Notes under the pieces: model-generated
Seen by the model: the letters and a program-made list of their open reading frames with translations, nothing else
The model's database searches: none
Told to the model about the DNA's origin: nothing
Translations under genes and position numbers: made by a program
Part shown: piece after piece, positions 4,078 through 17,414 of the stretch
Numbering within the stretch: the stretch's first letter is position 1
Layout of the letters: each line of letters begins with the position of its first letter
Assembly: GCA_945865815.1 (NCBI GenBank)
Contig: CAMBFR010000032.1
Span: forward strand, 1 to 35,299
Length of the DNA: 35,299 nucleotides
Direction of reading: 5' to 3'
Source: Candidatus Sulfopaludibacter sp. SbA3
GTDB taxonomy: Bacteria > Acidobacteriota > Terriglobia > 20CM-2-55-15

Positions 4078-6737
<2,660 letters not shown>

Positions 6738-9419: not shown

Positions 9420-10673
9420 TTACAGGCTTGAAAAATCCAGCGTAGCGAAGTAGTCGTCAAGAGTCTCCGCACGGCGAATCTGCTGCACGCTGCCGTCTTC
9501 ACGCATCAGCAGTTCGGCGCATCGCAGCTTGCCGTTGTACTGGAAGCCCATGGAGTGCCCGTGCGCGCCCGCATCGTGGATCGCGAGGATGTCTCCGATC
9601 TGCACGTTCGGTAACAGCCGGTCGATGGCAAACTTGTCGTTGTTCTCGCACAGTGACCCGACCACATCGACCATGGTGTCTCGAGGGGCATCTTCCTTAC
9701 CCAGCACCGTGATGTGGTGATACGCCCCGTACATTCCCGGCCGCATCAGGTTGGCCATGCACGCATCCACGCCGACGTACTCCTTGTACGTGTGCTTCTC
9801 ATGAATCGCCCGGGTCACCAGGAACCCATAGGGCCCCGTGATACAGCGGCCGTTCTCCATGCACACCTTCAGGGGATGTAACCCCGCTGGCCGGATCCGT
9901 TGGTCGTATTCGGCCTTCACTCGCTGGCCCAGGGCTTCAAGATCGATAGCCTTCTGCTCGGGCCGGTAAGGAATGCCGATCCCGCCGCCCACGTTCACAA
10001 ACTCCAGCCGCACGTCGAGTTTTTCGGCTAGTTCGACGGCCAGATCGAACAGCATACGGGCGGTTTCCACAAAGAACTCCGCGTTCAGTTCGTTCGAGGC
10101 GACCATCGTATGCAAACCGAACCGCCTGCTCCCCTTCTTCCTGGCCGCTGCGTATGCCTCGAACAACTGGGCGCGGGTGAGCCCGTATTTCGCCTGTTCC
10201 GGCGTGCCGATGATCGCGTTCCCTTCACGCAGGGGCCCGGGGTTGTATCGAAAGCAAATCAGCTCCGGCAATCCCCCGGCACTCTCTTCCAGATACCGCA
10301 GGTGCGTGATGTCATCGAGGTTGACGATCGCTCCCAGTGCTTTCGCCCGTGTATACTCCGGGGCCGGCGTGTCGTTCGACGTGAACATGATCTCTTCGCC
10401 GACGATGCCCACTCGCTCGGCCAGCGCCAGTTCCGCCAGGCTTGAGCAATCGGCCCCAAACCCCTCCTCCTTCGCGATTTTCAGGATGTACGGATTTGGC
10501 GTCGCCTTGACCGCGAAGTATTCCTTGAACCCCTCGCACCAGCCGAATGCGGCGTTCAACCGCCGCGCGTTCCGGCGAATCCCGCCCTCGTCGTAGAGGT
10601 AGAACGGCGTGGGATGGTCACGAATGATGTCGCGGACTCTGGCTTCATTAAACGGAAGATTCTTATTAGTCAT
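9420..10673 (-). CDS. lysA: Diaminopimelate decarboxylase
   Basis: Decarboxylates meso-diaminopimelate to L-lysine with PLP. The 417-residue protein has the family order: HPTPFYLYD near the N-terminus, the PLP lysine K56 in YFAVKATPNP, the glycine-rich phosphate loop VGGGIGIPY, ENGRCITGP, the second-subunit active-site motif GSLCENND, and GDILAIHDAGAHGHSMGFQYNG. Several of these are shared with related fold-III decarboxylases, but the genomic context (murE, dapF, dapL, dapA, dapB) makes DAP the natural substrate. It diverges from murE with about 70 bp between the start codons. Confidence 0.93.
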   Translation of the reverse strand: MTNKNLPFNEARVRDIIRDHPTPFYLYDEGGIRRNARRLNAAFGWCEGFKEYFAVKATPNPYILKIAKEEGFGADCSSLAELALAERVGIVGEEIMFTSNDTPAPEYTRAKALGAIVNLDDITHLRYLEESAGGLPELICFRYNPGPLREGNAIIGTPEQAKYGLTRAQLFEAYAAARKKGSRRFGLHTMVASNELNAEFFVETARMLFDLAVELAEKLDVRLEFVNVGGGIGIPYRPEQKAIDLEALGQRVKAEYDQRIRPAGLHPLKVCMENGRCITGPYGFLVTRAIHEKHTYKEYVGVDACMANLMRPGMYGAYHHITVLGKEDAPRDTMVDVVGSLCENNDKFAIDRLLPNVQIGDILAIHDAGAHGHSMGFQYNGKLRCAELLMREDGSVQQIRRAETLDDYFATLDFSSL

Positions 10674-10742
10674 CAGTCAGTGAGTTTACCTTGCCACGGC
10701 GAAGGGTGGCAATCCGGCATCTCCTGTGGAGGGCCGTGTAAA

Positions 10743-12329
10743 ATGGTTACCGGCATGAGACTAGGTGATCTTTGGGCGAAGCACGGCGATGGCACACTGC
10801 GGCCGGACTCCGCCGAAACGAAAGAACTGTTCATCTTCGGCGTCACCGACGATTCCCGGGACGTTCGCTTCGGCTACCTTTTTTGCGCCCTGCCTGGAGT
10901 CACGGAGGATGGGCTTCGGTACTGCTCGCAAGCCGCCGCAAAAGGCGCTCAGGCAATTGCAGTGCCTGAAGGCACGCGCGACGAAGCTCTTGGTCTGAAC
11001 GAGTACGAGCGGGGGAAAATTGTCGTCATGCGAGTCCGGAACATTCGAGGAATGTATGCACGGCTGGCGTCCGATTTTCATTCCGGCCGTCCCGGCACCA
11101 TCGCAGCCGTCACCGGCACCAATGGCAAAACATCAACGGTGTGCTTCCTTCGCGATCTGTGGTGCGAGGACGGCCGCAGCGCAGTAAGCCTTGGGACCCT
11201 GGGCCTCCAGGCTCGCGGCAAGCGCCTCTCCAACCTTGAAGCAGGCCTCACAACGTACGATGCGAAAACTCTTCATACGATGCTTGGGGAGCTGGAGCGT
11301 GTGCACGGCGTCACACATCTTGCGATGGAGGCCTCCAGCCACGCGCTGGATCAGCAACGCTTGGCCGGCGTCATTTTTGACGCGGCGGGTTTTACCAATC
11401 TTACCCAGGACCATCTCGACTACCACCCGTCGATGGAAGCCTATTTTCAGGCTAAAGCGAAACTCTTTGATGAGCGGCTCAGGGCCGATGGCGTTGCCGT
11501 AGTGAATGTCCGCGATGCGTCCCGCGATACATGGGGCACGCGGATTGCATCCGCAATGAGGGCACGAGGCACCCGGGTCATCTCCTATGGCGAAGCAGGC
11601 GATAACGCCGACCTCGTGGTGAGCCAGCGAATTCCACATGCGCAGGGGCAAACACTGAAAGTATCCGTGTTCGGTGCATTCTATGAAGTCGAGGCGCCGG
11701 TGGCAGGTTCTTTTCAGGCAGAGAACATTCTCTGCGCGCTCGGACTCGCCATGGGAACCAACGTGCCAGTGGAACGTGCGATTGCGGGCATCTCCCGCCT
11801 GGCGCCCGTTCCAGGACGCCTCGAACTTGCTGCCGTTCTTGCAAATGGCGCAGCAGTCTACGTGGACTACGCACACACGCCCGATGCACTGGACAACGTT
11901 CTCCGCGGTTTACGTCCGCACGTCGGTGCGAAAGCCAAACTCCACGCTCTCTTCGGATGTGGAGGCGACCGCGATGCGAAGAAGCGCCCCATCATGGGGC
12001 GCATTGCCGAAGAACTCGCCGATCGCGTCTGGGTGACGGATGACAATCCACGCACCGAAGACCCGGACTCCATTAGAAAAGAGGTTCTTTCGGGTACGAC
12101 AAGAGCCGCGAACGCCGGTCCGCGGCGTGAAGCGCTGCAACTCGCTGTTTCCGCGCTGCGGTCCGGAGACGTCCTGGTCGTCGCAGGCAAGGGCCATGAA
12201 GACTATCAAATTGTTCTTGAACGAGACCCGTTCGGCCAACCCGTGCCGGATTCTCGCGGGCGCCTCATAACGAAGAAAATTCCATTCTCCGATGCGGCGA
12301 TCATCCGTGAGATCATCGCGTCCATTTAG
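10743..12329 (+). CDS. murE: UDP-MurNAc-L-Ala-D-Glu:meso-diaminopimelate ligase
   Basis: Adds the third residue to the peptidoglycan stem peptide using ATP. The reading frame is open from 10614, but ATG 10743 is chosen because GGAGGG (10728-10733) lies nine bases upstream; a second ATG at 10755 is also possible. The 528-residue product has the ATP loop TGTNGKTST (about 124-132), the EASSHALDQ motif, LTQDHLDYHPS, the YAHTPDAL segment and GGDRD. The substrate-selecting motif is DNPR (434-437), the form known for meso-DAP rather than lysine enzymes. It heads an operon with dapF (5-bp gap) and dapL. Confidence 0.95.
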   Translation: MVTGMRLGDLWAKHGDGTLRPDSAETKELFIFGVTDDSRDVRFGYLFCALPGVTEDGLRYCSQAAAKGAQAIAVPEGTRDEALGLNEYERGKIVVMRVRNIRGMYARLASDFHSGRPGTIAAVTGTNGKTSTVCFLRDLWCEDGRSAVSLGTLGLQARGKRLSNLEAGLTTYDAKTLHTMLGELERVHGVTHLAMEASSHALDQQRLAGVIFDAAGFTNLTQDHLDYHPSMEAYFQAKAKLFDERLRADGVAVVNVRDASRDTWGTRIASAMRARGTRVISYGEAGDNADLVVSQRIPHAQGQTLKVSVFGAFYEVEAPVAGSFQAENILCALGLAMGTNVPVERAIAGISRLAPVPGRLELAAVLANGAAVYVDYAHTPDALDNVLRGLRPHVGAKAKLHALFGCGGDRDAKKRPIMGRIAEELADRVWVTDDNPRTEDPDSIRKEVLSGTTRAANAGPRREALQLAVSALRSGDVLVVAGKGHEDYQIVLERDPFGQPVPDSRGRLITKKIPFSDAAIIREIIASI

Positions 12330-12334
12330 CGCAT

Positions 12335-13336
12335 ATGGCCGACTTCTATGATGCCCGTGGCAATACGTACTTTGTAGCTTCGCCGAACGAAATTGGTCTT
12401 CCCCGCGCCGTTGCCGAAGCCGCCGAGGCACGCGGGACCTGGGCGCTTCGCTCCATCGAACGCATCTGCCGCCGGCCGAGTGGGTCTGAAGCGAGCGACG
12501 CAAAGAAATACCTGTCGGACGGCTTGTTGGTGGGACCGTTTCCGGACGGAGACGCTTTCGGCTTGTTGATCGTGAACACGGACGGGACGCTGGCGGAGCG
12601 CAGCGGAAACGGGCTGACGATTTTCTCCCAATTTCTTGTCGATACCGGGCAGGCTGATTCCTCGGATGCGTTCCTTGTGCGCATCTATCACGATAGACCT
12701 CCGTTACCATTTGTCGAGGCTCGGATAGAAGCCGGCGTACGAGAAGGTCATCAGGGGTTCTGGATAGACATGGGCATCCCAACGTTTGGGATGGCAGCCG
12801 TTGAGGCGTCGCCCGAATACGTGGGGGTCTCGGAGTTTCACGGCCATAATGTGTTTCGGGTTCTCGATCTCGAGAAAATTGACGCCTCGTGGACATGCAG
12901 CCAGTTCGTCAATGTCGGGAATCCCCACTGCGTGACCTTCCTGAACAGCCCCGGCCTGTTACCGTCTATGGAGCAACTCGGATCGCAGAACTGGCTGCCC
13001 CGGCTAACCGCCATCGCAAATAGCACCGCGAGCGACGGTGCGCCGGGTGCAGGACGTCCATGCAGGAACGGTATCAATCTGCAGTGGGCCTCGGTCGAAG
13101 GTCCGGATACTATTGCCGCCCGGGTTTTTGAGCGCGGCGAAGGACCAACATTGTCTTCCGGGTCCAGCGCGACGGCCGTCGCAAGCGCCGCACGGAAGCT
13201 GGGGCTTCTCGTTGCGAAGACAGTAAATGTGGATATGCCTGGAGGTGTTGCACCCGTGCGATTTGATGAACGAAATGGGATACTGGAGCGCGTGATGTTG
13301 TTTGGCGAAGCGAAGCGAGCGAATCCTAAATCATGA
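12335..13336 (+). CDS. dapF: Diaminopimelate epimerase-like protein lacking both catalytic cysteines
   Basis: A DapF-fold protein in the right operon place to convert LL- to meso-diaminopimelate. Ligand-binding positions are kept: N10 in RGN, N81 in NTDG, N196/H198 in GNPHC, N248, and E266-R267 in the RVFERG segment. However, the two cysteines that act as acid and base in known DapF enzymes are both serine: S90 in AERSGNG (normally EMCGNG) and S275 in PTLSSGSS (normally ETLACGTG). The codons AGC and TCC were read directly. At 333 residues it is longer than usual (about 270-280), with extra segments around 30-70 and 205-245. The frame is intact, overlaps dapL by ATGA and follows murE by 5 bp, so it does not look like a decaying gene. 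Epimerase activity is uncertain. Confidence 0.85.
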
Positions 13337-14562
13337 CTTACATCAACGAACATTATCTGAAGCTGACCGCTGGTTACCTGTTTCCGGAAATCGGCCGGCG
13401 AGTCAAAACATTCTGCGACGAAAACCCTTCCGCGAAAGTCATTCGCTTAGGTATCGGCGATGTTACCGAATCCCTTGCTCCCGCCGTGATCCAGGCGATG
13501 CATAGAGCCGTCGATGAGTTGGCCTTGCGGTCGTCGTTTCGTGGCTATGGGCCTGAGCAGGGTTACGATTTCCTGCGCGAGGCCATTGCCAAACACGATT
13601 ACCAGGCTCGCGGAGCCACGGTCGACGCGGATGAGATTTTCGTCTCGGACGGATCGAAGTGTGACTCGGGGAACATCCTGGATGTCTTCGGAGACAATAA
13701 CGTTATCGCCGTGCTCGACCCGGTCTACCCGGTGTATGTGGATACCAATGTCATGGCCGGGCACACGGGCCCCGCAGACGCCACCGGCCGCTACAGCGGT
13801 TTGGTTTATCTGCCGGTTACTGCGGAGAATGATTTCGTTCCCGAACTTCCGAAGCAGCGGGTCGATCTGATTTACCTGTGCTATCCGAACAACCCGACCG
13901 GCGTGGTCGCCACCAGGGACATGCTGAAACGTTGGGTCGAATACGCGCAGCAGAACAGTTCGATCATTTTGTACGACGCGGCATATGAGGCGTACATCAC
14001 GGACTCATCCATTCCGCACTCGATCTACGAAATTGAAGGAGCCCGGGACGTCGCGCTTGAATTCCGCAGTTTCAGCAAGACCTCCGGATTCACCGGTGTG
14101 CGGTGCGCCTTCACCGTGATTCCGAAGGGCCTCAAGGGAAAGACGAAAGATGGCCGCGAAGCCTCCATTCATTCGCTTTGGAATCGGCGGCATAGCACCA
14201 AGTTCAATGGTGTCTCGTATCCCGTGCAGCGAGGCGCCGAAGCCATTTACTCGCCCGAAGGCAGGCAGCAGGTGCGAGAGACCATCGAGTTCTACCTTGG
14301 CAACGCCACGCTGGTGCGTGAAGCACTGACGAAACTCGGGATCCAGGTTTACGGCGGTGTGAACGCGCCTTACGTGTGGTTGAAGACTCCCGGCAATTTG
14401 AGCAGTTGGGACTTCTTTGACAAGCTGCTGCGGGAAGCCCACCTGGTGGGAACGCCAGGAAGCGGTTTTGGAGCCTGCGGGGAGGGCTATTTCCGCCTGA
14501 GCGCCTTCAATAGCCGAGCCAACGTCGAGGAAGCCGTCGAGCGCTTCGCGAAAATCATGTAA
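13333..14562 (+). CDS. dapL: LL-diaminopimelate aminotransferase
   Basis: Converts tetrahydrodipicolinate and glutamate directly to LL-diaminopimelate, bypassing the acylated DapD/DapC/DapE route. The 409-residue length fits. DapL features include [20 protein letters not shown] at the start, LGIGDVTE, the [15 protein letters not shown] segment, [19 protein letters not shown] and the PLP lysine K249 in [12 protein letters not shown]. The start overlaps the dapF stop (ATGA), giving translational coupling. It is convergent with dapA across a 218-bp palindromic repeat. With dapA, dapB, dapF, murE and lysA nearby it defines the aminotransferase variant of lysine biosynthesis. Confidence 0.96.
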
Positions 14563-14792: not shown

Positions 14793-15701
14793 TCATTTTC
14801 GCGCTGCGGCGTGCTGAACCAGTCCAAGGCTCTCGATCAACTGGCGAAGCCTGTCGCGGTTTGGGGGACTCATCGGAACCAGCGGCAGCCTGTAGTTCTC
14901 CTCGATCATTCCCATCATCGCCAGAGCCGCCTTGACCGGAATGGGATTTGGCTCGACGAAGTTCGCATTCATCAAAGGAAGCATCCTGTAGTTCAGCGCG
15001 CGCGCCTCGGTGAAATTCCCTTCCAGAGCGGCATCCACCATGGCACGCATCATGCCGGGAACCTCATTCGACACGACCGAGACCACGCCGTCGCCACCGA
15101 GCGCGATGACGGCGAGCGTCAGGGAATCGTCGCCGGAGAGGACGCTGAAACCGGCGGGCCGGTCGCGAAGGATCTCCATGATCTGCGCAATGTTTCCGGA
15201 GGCTTCCTTCACGCCGACGATGTTCCGAATTCCGGCAAGACGCAGCATGGTGGCCGCCTCGATGTTGCTGGCCGTGCGGCCGGGCACGTTATAGACGACG
15301 ACCGGAATATTCTCCGCCTCGGCGATCGCCTTGAAGTGTTCATAGAATCCCTGCTGTGTCGGCTTGTTGTAGTACGGGCCGACCGACAGCACTCCGCCGG
15401 CTCCCAACTGTTTCGCCCGCCTGGTCCTTTGAACGGCCTTTGCCGTGGAATTGCTGCCGGCGCCAACGATCACCGGAACGCGTCCCGCAGCCTGTTCGAT
15501 GACGATCTGAATGACCCGGTCCGTTTCATCGGTATCGAGAGTCGCGCCTTCGCCCGTAGTGCCGCACGGCAGGAGCATGTCAATGCGGTCCGCAATCTGG
15601 AAGTCCACGAGCCGGCGCAGTGCTTTCTCATCGATCGATCCGTCGGACTTGAACGGCGTCACCAGAGCCGTGCCGGTGCCGCGAAAGGGCTGTTTACTCA
15701 T
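14793..15701 (-). CDS. dapA: 4-hydroxy-tetrahydrodipicolinate synthase
   Basis: Condenses aspartate semialdehyde with pyruvate, the first step of the DAP branch. ATG 15701 is chosen over the longer open frame to 15782: it gives the usual N-terminus (FRGTGTALVTPF), AGGGAA stands a few bases upstream, and the upstream part would overlap dapB. The 302-residue protein has the substrate motif GTTGE (47-51), the proton-relay Tyr Y137 and Arg R142 in YNVPGRT, and the pyruvate Schiff-base lysine K165 in GVKEASGN. It is the last gene of the M20-dapB-dapA operon, 16 bp after dapB. Confidence 0.96.
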   Translation of the reverse strand: MSKQPFRGTGTALVTPFKSDGSIDEKALRRLVDFQIADRIDMLLPCGTTGEGATLDTDETDRVIQIVIEQAAGRVPVIVGAGSNSTAKAVQRTRRAKQLGAGGVLSVGPYYNKPTQQGFYEHFKAIAEAENIPVVVYNVPGRTASNIEAATMLRLAGIRNIVGVKEASGNIAQIMEILRDRPAGFSVLSGDDSLTLAVIALGGDGVVSVVSNEVPGMMRAMVDAALEGNFTEARALNYRMLPLMNANFVEPNPIPVKAALAMMGMIEENYRLPLVPMSPPNRDRLRQLIESLGLVQHAAARK

Positions 15702-15717
15702 ATATGTTCCCTGAATT

Positions 15718-16428
15718 CTACAGGTCCACGTCGTCCATCGTATACACGCCTTTGCGGCCGCGCAGCCATCGGGCGGCGGCAATGGCGCCCATTGCGAATC
15801 CTCTCCGGTTTTTGGCTACGTGATGCAATTCGATAAGATCCGCTTCGGAATCGAATCCCACAATATGGGTGCCCGCGAAGGTACCTGCCCGCGTGGAGGA
15901 GACGTGCAGCGCGTCGGCCGCAATAGGACCCTCGGGCGGCCCCGGCAGAATGACCTGCTTGCGCTCCATGTTGTCCACAAGGATCTTTGCAAGACTCAGT
16001 GCCGTGCCGCTCGGGCTGTCCACTTTCTGTTTATGATGGTATTCGTGGATGAACGGATCGTATTCCTTCGCGTTGTTCATCAGTTCCGCCGCACGCTTCA
16101 CAATCCGAAAGAAAATATTCATGCCGATCGAAAAGTTTGTCGAGTGCAGCAGGCCGGAGTGTTGGACCAATTTCCGAATTTCCGGCAAATGGGCATACCA
16201 GCCGGTGGTTCCGACCACGATGTCTCTTTTCGCTTCGATCGCTGCGCGAATATTTCCAAGTACGGCGTCCGGCGTGCTGAACTCGATGCAGACGTCCACG
16301 TCAGCCAGTAACTCGGGCTTTACCGCAGGCTCGACATCGAACACCCGGACGACTTCCTCACCCTGCTCCCGGGCCAGGGCGTCCACTTCCCGGCCCATCT
16401 TGCCGAACCCGATGATAGCGATTTTCAT
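15718..16428 (-). CDS. dapB: 4-hydroxy-tetrahydrodipicolinate reductase
   Basis: NAD(P)H-dependent reduction of the DapA product to tetrahydrodipicolinate, which is then the substrate of DapL. It has an N-terminal Rossmann motif (IGFGKMG), a shorter than usual N-domain, the VVGTTGW motif, SIGMNIFF, and the catalytic EYHHKQKVDSPSGTA segment. The product is 236 residues against roughly 240-275 for the family. Its ATG overlaps the stop of the M20 peptidase gene (ATGA), so the two are translationally coupled. Confidence 0.95.
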   Translation of the reverse strand: MKIAIIGFGKMGREVDALAREQGEEVVRVFDVEPAVKPELLADVDVCIEFSTPDAVLGNIRAAIEAKRDIVVGTTGWYAHLPEIRKLVQHSGLLHSTNFSIGMNIFFRIVKRAAELMNNAKEYDPFIHEYHHKQKVDSPSGTALSLAKILVDNMERKQVILPGPPEGPIAADALHVSSTRAGTFAGTHIVGFDSEADLIELHHVAKNRRGFAMGAIAAARWLRGRKGVYTMDDVDL

Positions 16429-17414
16429 GTCAGCAACTTCCGTACAAGGCGCTCATAAAGTTCGATGCCTTCAAGCAGTTCCGTCTTCCGGATTTTCTCG
16501 TCCGCAGTGTGCGCGTCGAGAATCGACCCCGGACCGATCAACAACGGTTTACCGAGATTGGGAAGGTATGGAATGTCGCTGCCGAAGGAAACCACGGTTG
16601 TTTGAAATCCATCGACAACGTGCATGATCTGCGGATCGGTTGCGGTAACGATCTCCATGGAAGCCCGGTCTTTCACAATCGATCGCATCTTCTCTTCGAC
16701 GCTCTTCCGCCCCTCGATCGTGCGAATCATGATCGTGGCCGCCGCTTTCGCCGGAACGATATTGCCGGCCTCGCCGCCGCGGAACACGCCAACATTAAAG
16801 GACCCCTGGCCCAGAACCGGGTCCGACCCCCAGCCGGCATTCCGGCAATCATTCAACACTTTCCATAAGCCCTCGATGGCCGATACTCCGGTCTCGGGAT
16901 AACCGGAGTGCGCCGCCTTTCCGTTCACCGTCAGATTCGCCCAGAAACTGCCTTTCTGCGCGGTAGCGAGCTTGTTGTCCGTCGGTTCGCCCACCACGAC
17001 GAACCGCGAATTCCATTTCAAGGTGTTCGCGGCCTTCGCGCCGCCGCCATCGGTCTCTTCGCCGACGACGAAGAGGTAACCGAAGTTGGAAATGCCATTG
17101 CGGCGCAAACGATCGCCGGTTTCGAGCATCGCCGCAATGATGCCCTTCGTATCGCAGGCCCCACGGCCGTACAGGTAATCCTCATCTTCGCGAATTGGAA
17201 GCACCGGCGGAACAGTGTCGATGTGCGTGCAGAACACGACGGCCGGATCTCCCGCCAGCGCGATGATATTGAACCGATTTTCGGCCACATTCTGCCGCTC
17301 CACTTTATAGCCCAGTTCTACCAGCCGGGAGGACAGGAATTCGCCAACCTCGCGCTCAGATCCGGTCACAGAGGGGATGGCCATCAACTTGTTCGTCAGT
17401 TCAAAAACGGTCAT
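16425..17414 (-). CDS. M20 family deacylase (ArgE/DapE type)
   Basis: A 329-residue di-zinc amidohydrolase. The metal ligands of the family are all seen: H64 and D66 in CTHIDTVPP, D88 in GRGACDTKG, E119/E120 in VVGEETDG, E143 in VVGEPT and H302 in SILDAHTADEKI. Relatives remove acyl groups from N-acetylornithine (ArgE), N-succinyl-DAP (DapE) or LysW-linked amino acids (LysK). It is coupled to dapB by ATGA, so a role near DAP or lysine is likely. Yet DapL makes a classical DapE step unnecessary and no dapD or acyltransferase is in the window, so the true substrate is open. It is short for ArgE/DapE (usually 370-390 residues), closer in size to LysK-type enzymes. Confidence 0.88.
   Translation of the reverse strand: MTVFELTNKLMAIPSVTGSEREVGEFLSSRLVELGYKVERQNVAENRFNIIALAGDPAVVFCTHIDTVPPVLPIREDEDYLYGRGACDTKGIIAAMLETGDRLRRNGISNFGYLFVVGEETDGGGAKAANTLKWNSRFVVVGEPTDNKLATAQKGSFWANLTVNGKAAHSGYPETGVSAIEGLWKVLNDCRNAGWGSDPVLGQGSFNVGVFRGGEAGNIVPAKAAATIMIRTIEGRKSVEEKMRSIVKDRASMEIVTATDPQIMHVVDGFQTTVVSFGSDIPYLPNLGKPLLIGPGSILDAHTADEKIRKTELLEGIELYERLVRKLLT

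Follow-up and report, generated by a model that had tools for sequence, protein, structure and literature searches.

The textbook mechanism of DapF is a proton transfer by two cysteines, and it is one of the reasons why the enzyme has been studied as an antibacterial target. PhzF acts on a different substrate and works without a cysteine pair. PhzF (1u1w) has a DapF-like fold, with a Z of 24.6 to the predicted model of the protein described below. Serine at one of the two sites is found, with the same fold, in mutants of DapF (C73S in 2q9h, C217S in 2q9j) and HisR (C67S in 9CR1, C209S in 9CR6). These proteins are laboratory-made and changed at one site only, whereas the protein analyzed here is natural and has serine at both. 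The single serine mutants of HisR are reported to be greatly slowed (PMC11602996), which counts against a Ser/Ser protein being an epimerase, and another report says that mutation of one site to serine hinders catalysis in such enzymes (PMC12039745). Within the proline racemase superfamily, PMC4113996 describes a natural epimerase with serine at one site, the 4-hydroxyproline 2-epimerase (Ser93/Cys255). It is a precedent for one of the serines of a Ser/Ser epimerase, although it retains one cysteine and belongs to another family with another substrate. The same text presents the trans-3-hydroxyproline dehydratase (Ser90/Thr256), which likewise has no cysteine at either site, but which dehydrates instead of epimerising and is also of another family. 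We recognized neither a description of a Ser/Ser DapF nor any acidobacterial DapF biochemistry in the literature searched, outside which lie most subscription journals.

The window studied here, the 35,299 nucleotides of contig CAMBFR010000032.1 of Candidatus Sulfopaludibacter sp. SbA3, encodes a DapF-like protein of 333 amino acids in an open frame (12335..13336, + strand). In phmmer alignments to solved DapFs, Ser90 (codon AGC, 12602..12604, + strand) and Ser275 (codon TCC, 13157..13159, + strand) fall on the first and second catalytic cysteines, as the preliminary description had proposed: AERSGNG is aligned over, e.g., EPEMCGNG, and TLSSGSS over TLACGTG. The first codon of the gene comes 5 bases after the end of murE, and its end shares 4 bases with the start of dapL, which bears out the intact frame and the tight coupling to these two genes reported earlier. 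The murE gene (10614..12329, + strand) encodes the DNPR motif and scores 517 bits with NF001124 (cut-off 476); its true start is probably inside this ORF, which overlaps lysA. The latter, the gene for DAP decarboxylase, is divergent from murE (9420..10673, - strand) and, with 293.6 bits, is just below the TIGR01048 cut-off of 297.9. Downstream are dapL, encoding the LL-DAP aminotransferase (13333..14562, + strand; TIGR03542, 614 bits for a cut-off of 364.7), and, on the - strand, dapA (14793..15782; TIGR00674, 350.9 bits for a cut-off of 206.15), whose ORF has an uncertain TTG start, and dapB (15718..16428; TIGR00036, 147.1 bits for a cut-off of 122). The start of dapB is overlapped by a gene for an M20 peptidase of the ArgE/DapE type (16425-17414, - strand), which stayed below every cut-off in the 25 families listed out of 39; DapL makes the DapE step unnecessary. 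Scans for RNAs, tRNAs, and repeats gave nothing relevant to the serine pair.

The window protein resembles the Cys/Cys DapFs in its DAP-site residues and in the company of murE, dapL, and lysA. It has the asparagines and the Glu-Arg pair that bind DAP (N10, N81, N196, N248, E266, and R267), and it passes the cut-off of PF01678 (DAP_epimerase; 63 bits for 34.7). With 16.3 bits it is below the cut-off of 27 of the proline racemase family PF05544. It differs from the Cys/Cys enzymes in having S90 and S275 in place of the two catalytic cysteines and in scoring below the cut-off of the DapF equivalog TIGR00652 (73.7 bits for 114.65), which most other members of the class pass (81 of 101 genomes). 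Since family and fold fit, but neither the two cysteines nor the equivalog score are there, we regard the protein as a Ser/Ser variant that probably works like DapF rather than as DapF proper.

The fold was assessed on an AlphaFold2 model built from 16 sequences, with a pLDDT of 88.5 and a pTM of 0.89 (an earlier model from 14 sequences was poor, with a pLDDT of 61.6). The predicted structure has the two domains of DapF, and each catalytic position sits where a helix begins: S90 and S275 immediately precede helices 91-103 and 276-288. The solved structure that matches it best is a DAP epimerase in complex with DAP analogues (Z 29.7 and rmsd 2.9 over 269 residues). Compared with this predicted model, the Cys/Cys DapFs of H. 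influenzae (1gqz), a cyanobacterium (9mro), and Arabidopsis (3ejx) have Z values from 25.7 to 29.7. HisR is reported to have its catalytic residues where helices 2 and 4 begin (PMC11602996).

To assess the conservation of the site, we aligned 153 Ser/Ser sequences, which include 13 of the cassette type described below and are hence not independent. The ligand positions pointed out in the preliminary description are indeed kept: N10, N81, N248, E266, and R267 in all 153 sequences, and N196 in 152. D62 and N92 are likewise invariant. The two serines are encoded by TCN/TCN codons in 128 sequences, AGY/TCN in 22, TCN/AGY in two, and AGY/AGY in one; one genome (G006) reads "SA" in this alignment owing to the misalignment of the first piece of its gene. 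We found no alternative base residue specific to Ser/Ser proteins: apart from S90 and S275, the filter retained a single residue, E88 (141 of 153), which 11 of 40 Cys/Cys proteins have as well. The genes evolve under purifying selection, with dN/dS between 0.11 and 0.19 in eight of nine pairs, the ninth being saturated.

These data bear on the trivial explanations, i.e., a sequencing error, a pseudogene, or true cysteines placed elsewhere in the chain. Of the 14 homologous loci in other assemblies, 12 include both codons and are all Ser/Ser, and the remaining two, L042 and L044, extend over a single site each, which is serine. The dN/dS values and the identical residues in 153 sequences exclude a pseudogene. 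No column of the alignment has an invariant cysteine. The cysteine of SWTCS (residue 188, probably the C183 of the preliminary description) is a serine in L037 and an arginine in L043, C199 is missing from 29 of the 153 sequences, and C243 is confined to the 13 cassette-type sequences, all of which have it, and is absent from the other 140. An error at both codons, or cysteines in the C183-C199 region or at C243, had been named as what would overturn the earlier interpretation, and neither was observed. No point was found in favor of such an explanation, the conservation refutes it, and its probability is close to nil.

A second epimerase elsewhere in the genome had also been suggested. The source genome is of 4.34 Mb and 98.25% complete, and the window gene is the only DapF-like gene found in it (PF01678, TIGR00652, and a Ser/Ser profile at E 0.1). 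Ddh was not found in this genome. In 26 genomes of the class, Ddh was not found over the cut-off, seven of them having weak matches to the first 80-135 positions of the model. These searches thus revealed no second DapF and no Ddh, while an unrelated epimerase is conceivable given the DapF-less genomes described below. The MurE of the window is the sole one over the cut-off in the genome. Contig C153 has a murE relic, a 116-codon open frame at about 5232-5579 (locus L104) matching positions 4-95 of the MurE model, and its neighbors are presumably ftsI-like and murF-like genes. Because of this relic and of its being the only MurE over the cut-off, the window MurE appears to have taken the place of the ancestral enzyme.

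To study the distribution of the serine pair, we searched 101 genomes, all from the class or from nearer kin, and 83 had a TIGR00652 match. The proposed check of whether Ser/Ser is kept across a clade had a positive outcome: 81 of these genomes (that of the window included) have Ser/Ser in one frame, and the genes of the other two (G006 and G007) are in two pieces with serine at both sites. In a search of the phylum, 241 of 247 genomes, each at least 90% complete, had a TIGR00652 match. Among 100 further acidobacterial genomes, we identified 58 with Ser/Ser, 37 with Cys/Cys, four with Cys/Ser, and one partial case. This sample is not random, as 30 genomes were the highest-scoring ones and 70 were picked mostly for family coverage; 12 additional genomes of the same class are outside the count. 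The partial case (G276) shares coordinates with G112, and G314 with G101, which are probably the same genomes reached twice. For contrast, the 29 new high-scoring loci from the search of a betaproteobacterial family were all Cys/Cys. Ser/Ser thus characterizes a large part of a phylum. Of the three options of the preliminary description, that of a pair working "in this lineage" was the best supported but far too narrow in scope. Four Cys/Ser forms within the Cys/Cys group (L222 in G119, L228 in G133, L196 in G295, and L202 in G171) are possible intermediates.

To trace the origins of the pair, we built a tree of 70 rows with the two catalytic sites masked. It was cut from 89 rows by removing nine odd or long ones (three of them Ser/Ser) and ten further Ser/Ser rows. 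On this tree, Ser/Ser requires three changes. One Ser/Ser protein (L195, of genome G114) is within the Cys/Cys group. A single clade of all Ser/Ser sequences including it was rejected (p 0.002), since it sits near the Cys/Ser forms of that group, while a single origin is compatible with the data when it is left out (p 0.36); the groups in these tests were named after the tree had been seen. The serine pair thus probably arose twice or more. The position of the cassette type is unsure, because only three of the Cys/Cys rows are non-acidobacterial.

The nearest relatives of the window gene are found in part in another phylum. In one scan, 14 loci were identified on genome contigs: nine from MAGs assigned to Proteobacteria, Betaproteobacteria, or Burkholderiales, four from three Acidobacteria MAGs, and one from Pseudomonas sp. 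GV071 (47%). The close betaproteobacterial homologues mostly adjoin lysA, murE, or dapL. All three genes are together at seven of the 14 loci, others being cut by contig ends. At L035 and L037, lysA adjoins dapF and the murE between them is missing, and the Pseudomonas locus (L043) has none of the three nearby. We then analyzed 98 genomes from the family of one carrier (G105), nine of which have the cassette-type gene. A native Cys/Cys DapF over the cut-off is present in two of these nine carriers (G103 and G352) versus 83 of the 89 non-carriers, the remaining six having no native DapF match. The association of the cassette with the loss of native dapF has a Fisher p of 4e-6, a value that ignores kinship and completeness, and because the carriers are related the losses are not all independent. 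In G352, the two genes coexist, the cassette one being Ser/Ser and the native one Cys/Cys.

Three carriers (G105, G108, and G109) have relics of native dapF in DNA that is syntenic on both sides. Measured against the intact sequence of G103, about 545 bases are missing in G105 (2252-2796 of L111) and about 450 in G109 (2438-2884); since these deletions overlap without being nested, neither derives from the other. The relic of G108 is more reduced than both. A piece of native dapF in G102 is at a contig end and is uninformative on loss. Native dapF was not found in G106, G110, and G111. The acidobacterial carrier G107 has a 35-residue piece left of its native dapF. Outside the cassette, 11 of 13 carriers have a MurE over the cut-off (all but G103 and G112), and in G108 the end of this non-cassette MurE gene is in another frame.

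Some acidobacteria have no DapF at all in searches with TIGR00652 and the Ser/Ser profile at E 0.1. This concerns 24 genomes, 18 of the 101 in the class search and six of the 247 in the phylum search, and includes 14 of the 15 genomes of family f5 in the class search; G001, among the 24, has a completeness of only 81%. Ddh was not detected over the cut-off in the 18 genomes of the class search, and MurE with DNPR is present in all four DapF-less genomes examined for it. Such bacteria need another route to meso-DAP or use LL-DAP in their walls. As 24 genomes lack DapF and the four examined have this MurE, such a route might exist in the phylum, Ser/Ser genomes included. We found no account of acidobacterial wall chemistry, meso or LL, in the literature searched, including PMC11354219 and PMC12935467.

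Given its sequence, the conservation of the DAP site, the predicted fold, the gene neighborhood, the presence in another phylum, and the loss of native dapF in carriers, we consider it fairly likely that the window protein is a working LL/meso-DAP epimerase of the DapF fold, with a putative catalytic serine pair in place of the cysteines. DapL would make LL-DAP, the presumed substrate, of which the Ser/Ser protein would invert one alpha-carbon, and MurE and LysA would consume the resulting meso-DAP. The two serines, each placed directly before a central helix of one domain, would replace the cysteine pair, with one hydroxyl serving as the base and its partner as the acid. The helix ends and a closed, water-excluding site could make a serine hydroxyl usable as base. 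For the broader proposal, we see a somewhat better than even chance that a thiol-free, two-serine, cofactor-independent enzyme serves much of Acidobacteriota as the normal DAP epimerase, that it arose at least twice, and that it is found with its neighbors in another phylum, where it displaces the Cys/Cys enzyme; the two-thiol rule for this fold would in that case be no chemical necessity.

Other readings of these data have to be weighed. The proteins could act on a DAP-like substrate with another reaction or another substrate, e.g., a modified DAP suited to the MurE and LysA of the cassette. The adjacency of murE and lysA in many carriers would fit this, as would the second MurE over the cut-off kept in eight of 13 carriers and the dehydratase described with Ser/Thr at these sites (PMC4113996). 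Yet all named DAP-site residues are kept, L035, L037, and L043 have the gene without some or all of these partners, and native dapF is lost in seven of nine carriers, which makes this reading unlikely. The preliminary description had also considered that the protein became something else, DAP-binding or regulatory. It would then bind DAP without epimerising it, as a sensor, a scaffold, or a regulator of the MurE, DapL, or LysA step. An epimerase common in Acidobacteria and so far unrecognized would then make meso-DAP. Both acid/base residues do differ from those of all solved DapFs compared, and the DapF-less genomes, 18 of them also without Ddh over the cut-off, speak for such an enzyme. We nevertheless judge this improbable, since 153 sequences have retained specifically serine at the two sites, along with every other active-site residue, the neighborhood is that of DAP metabolism, and carrying the cassette goes with having lost native dapF in Betaproteobacteria, to which the acidobacterial epimerase would need to have been co-transferred.

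The betaproteobacterial pattern might itself be an artefact of mis-binned cassette contigs, or of incomplete MAGs combined with shared ancestry. Completeness is unstated for all nine carriers of the family, the Fisher test is blind to kinship, and the native piece of G102 is at a contig end. But one cassette contig is of 156 kb (L041), the relics of G105, G108, and G109 are flanked by synteny, the contig with the Pseudomonas gene spans 384 kb and belongs to a RefSeq-style record, and the class-wide Ser/Ser result is independent of this pattern. An artefact thus seems very unlikely.

If a large clade uses two serines, then either no thiol is needed to deprotonate an unactivated amino acid, contrary to what is supposed, or something else fills this role, and a phylum common in soil would escape annotation rules and inhibitors that are based on the cysteines. 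If the Ser/Ser proteins are inactive, many bacteria make meso-DAP by an unrecognized enzyme. Either outcome, a serine-pair epimerase or another route to meso-DAP, would be new. A disulfide is to be expected in the "oxidized DapF" of C. glutamicum (5h2g); since such a bond cannot form between serines, the pair may be an advantage.

Additional observations concern other genomes and elements. In family f31, L185 (G329) and L238 (G166) are high-scoring Ser/Ser DapFs in genomes with further DapF matches, and the other members examined have a divergent Cys/Cys DapF. Plasmids gave no match, and a single-protein search of viral contigs gave no close relative. An alignment search of the viral collection revealed seven DapF-like loci (L327-L333), which have cysteine at all catalytic sites covered.
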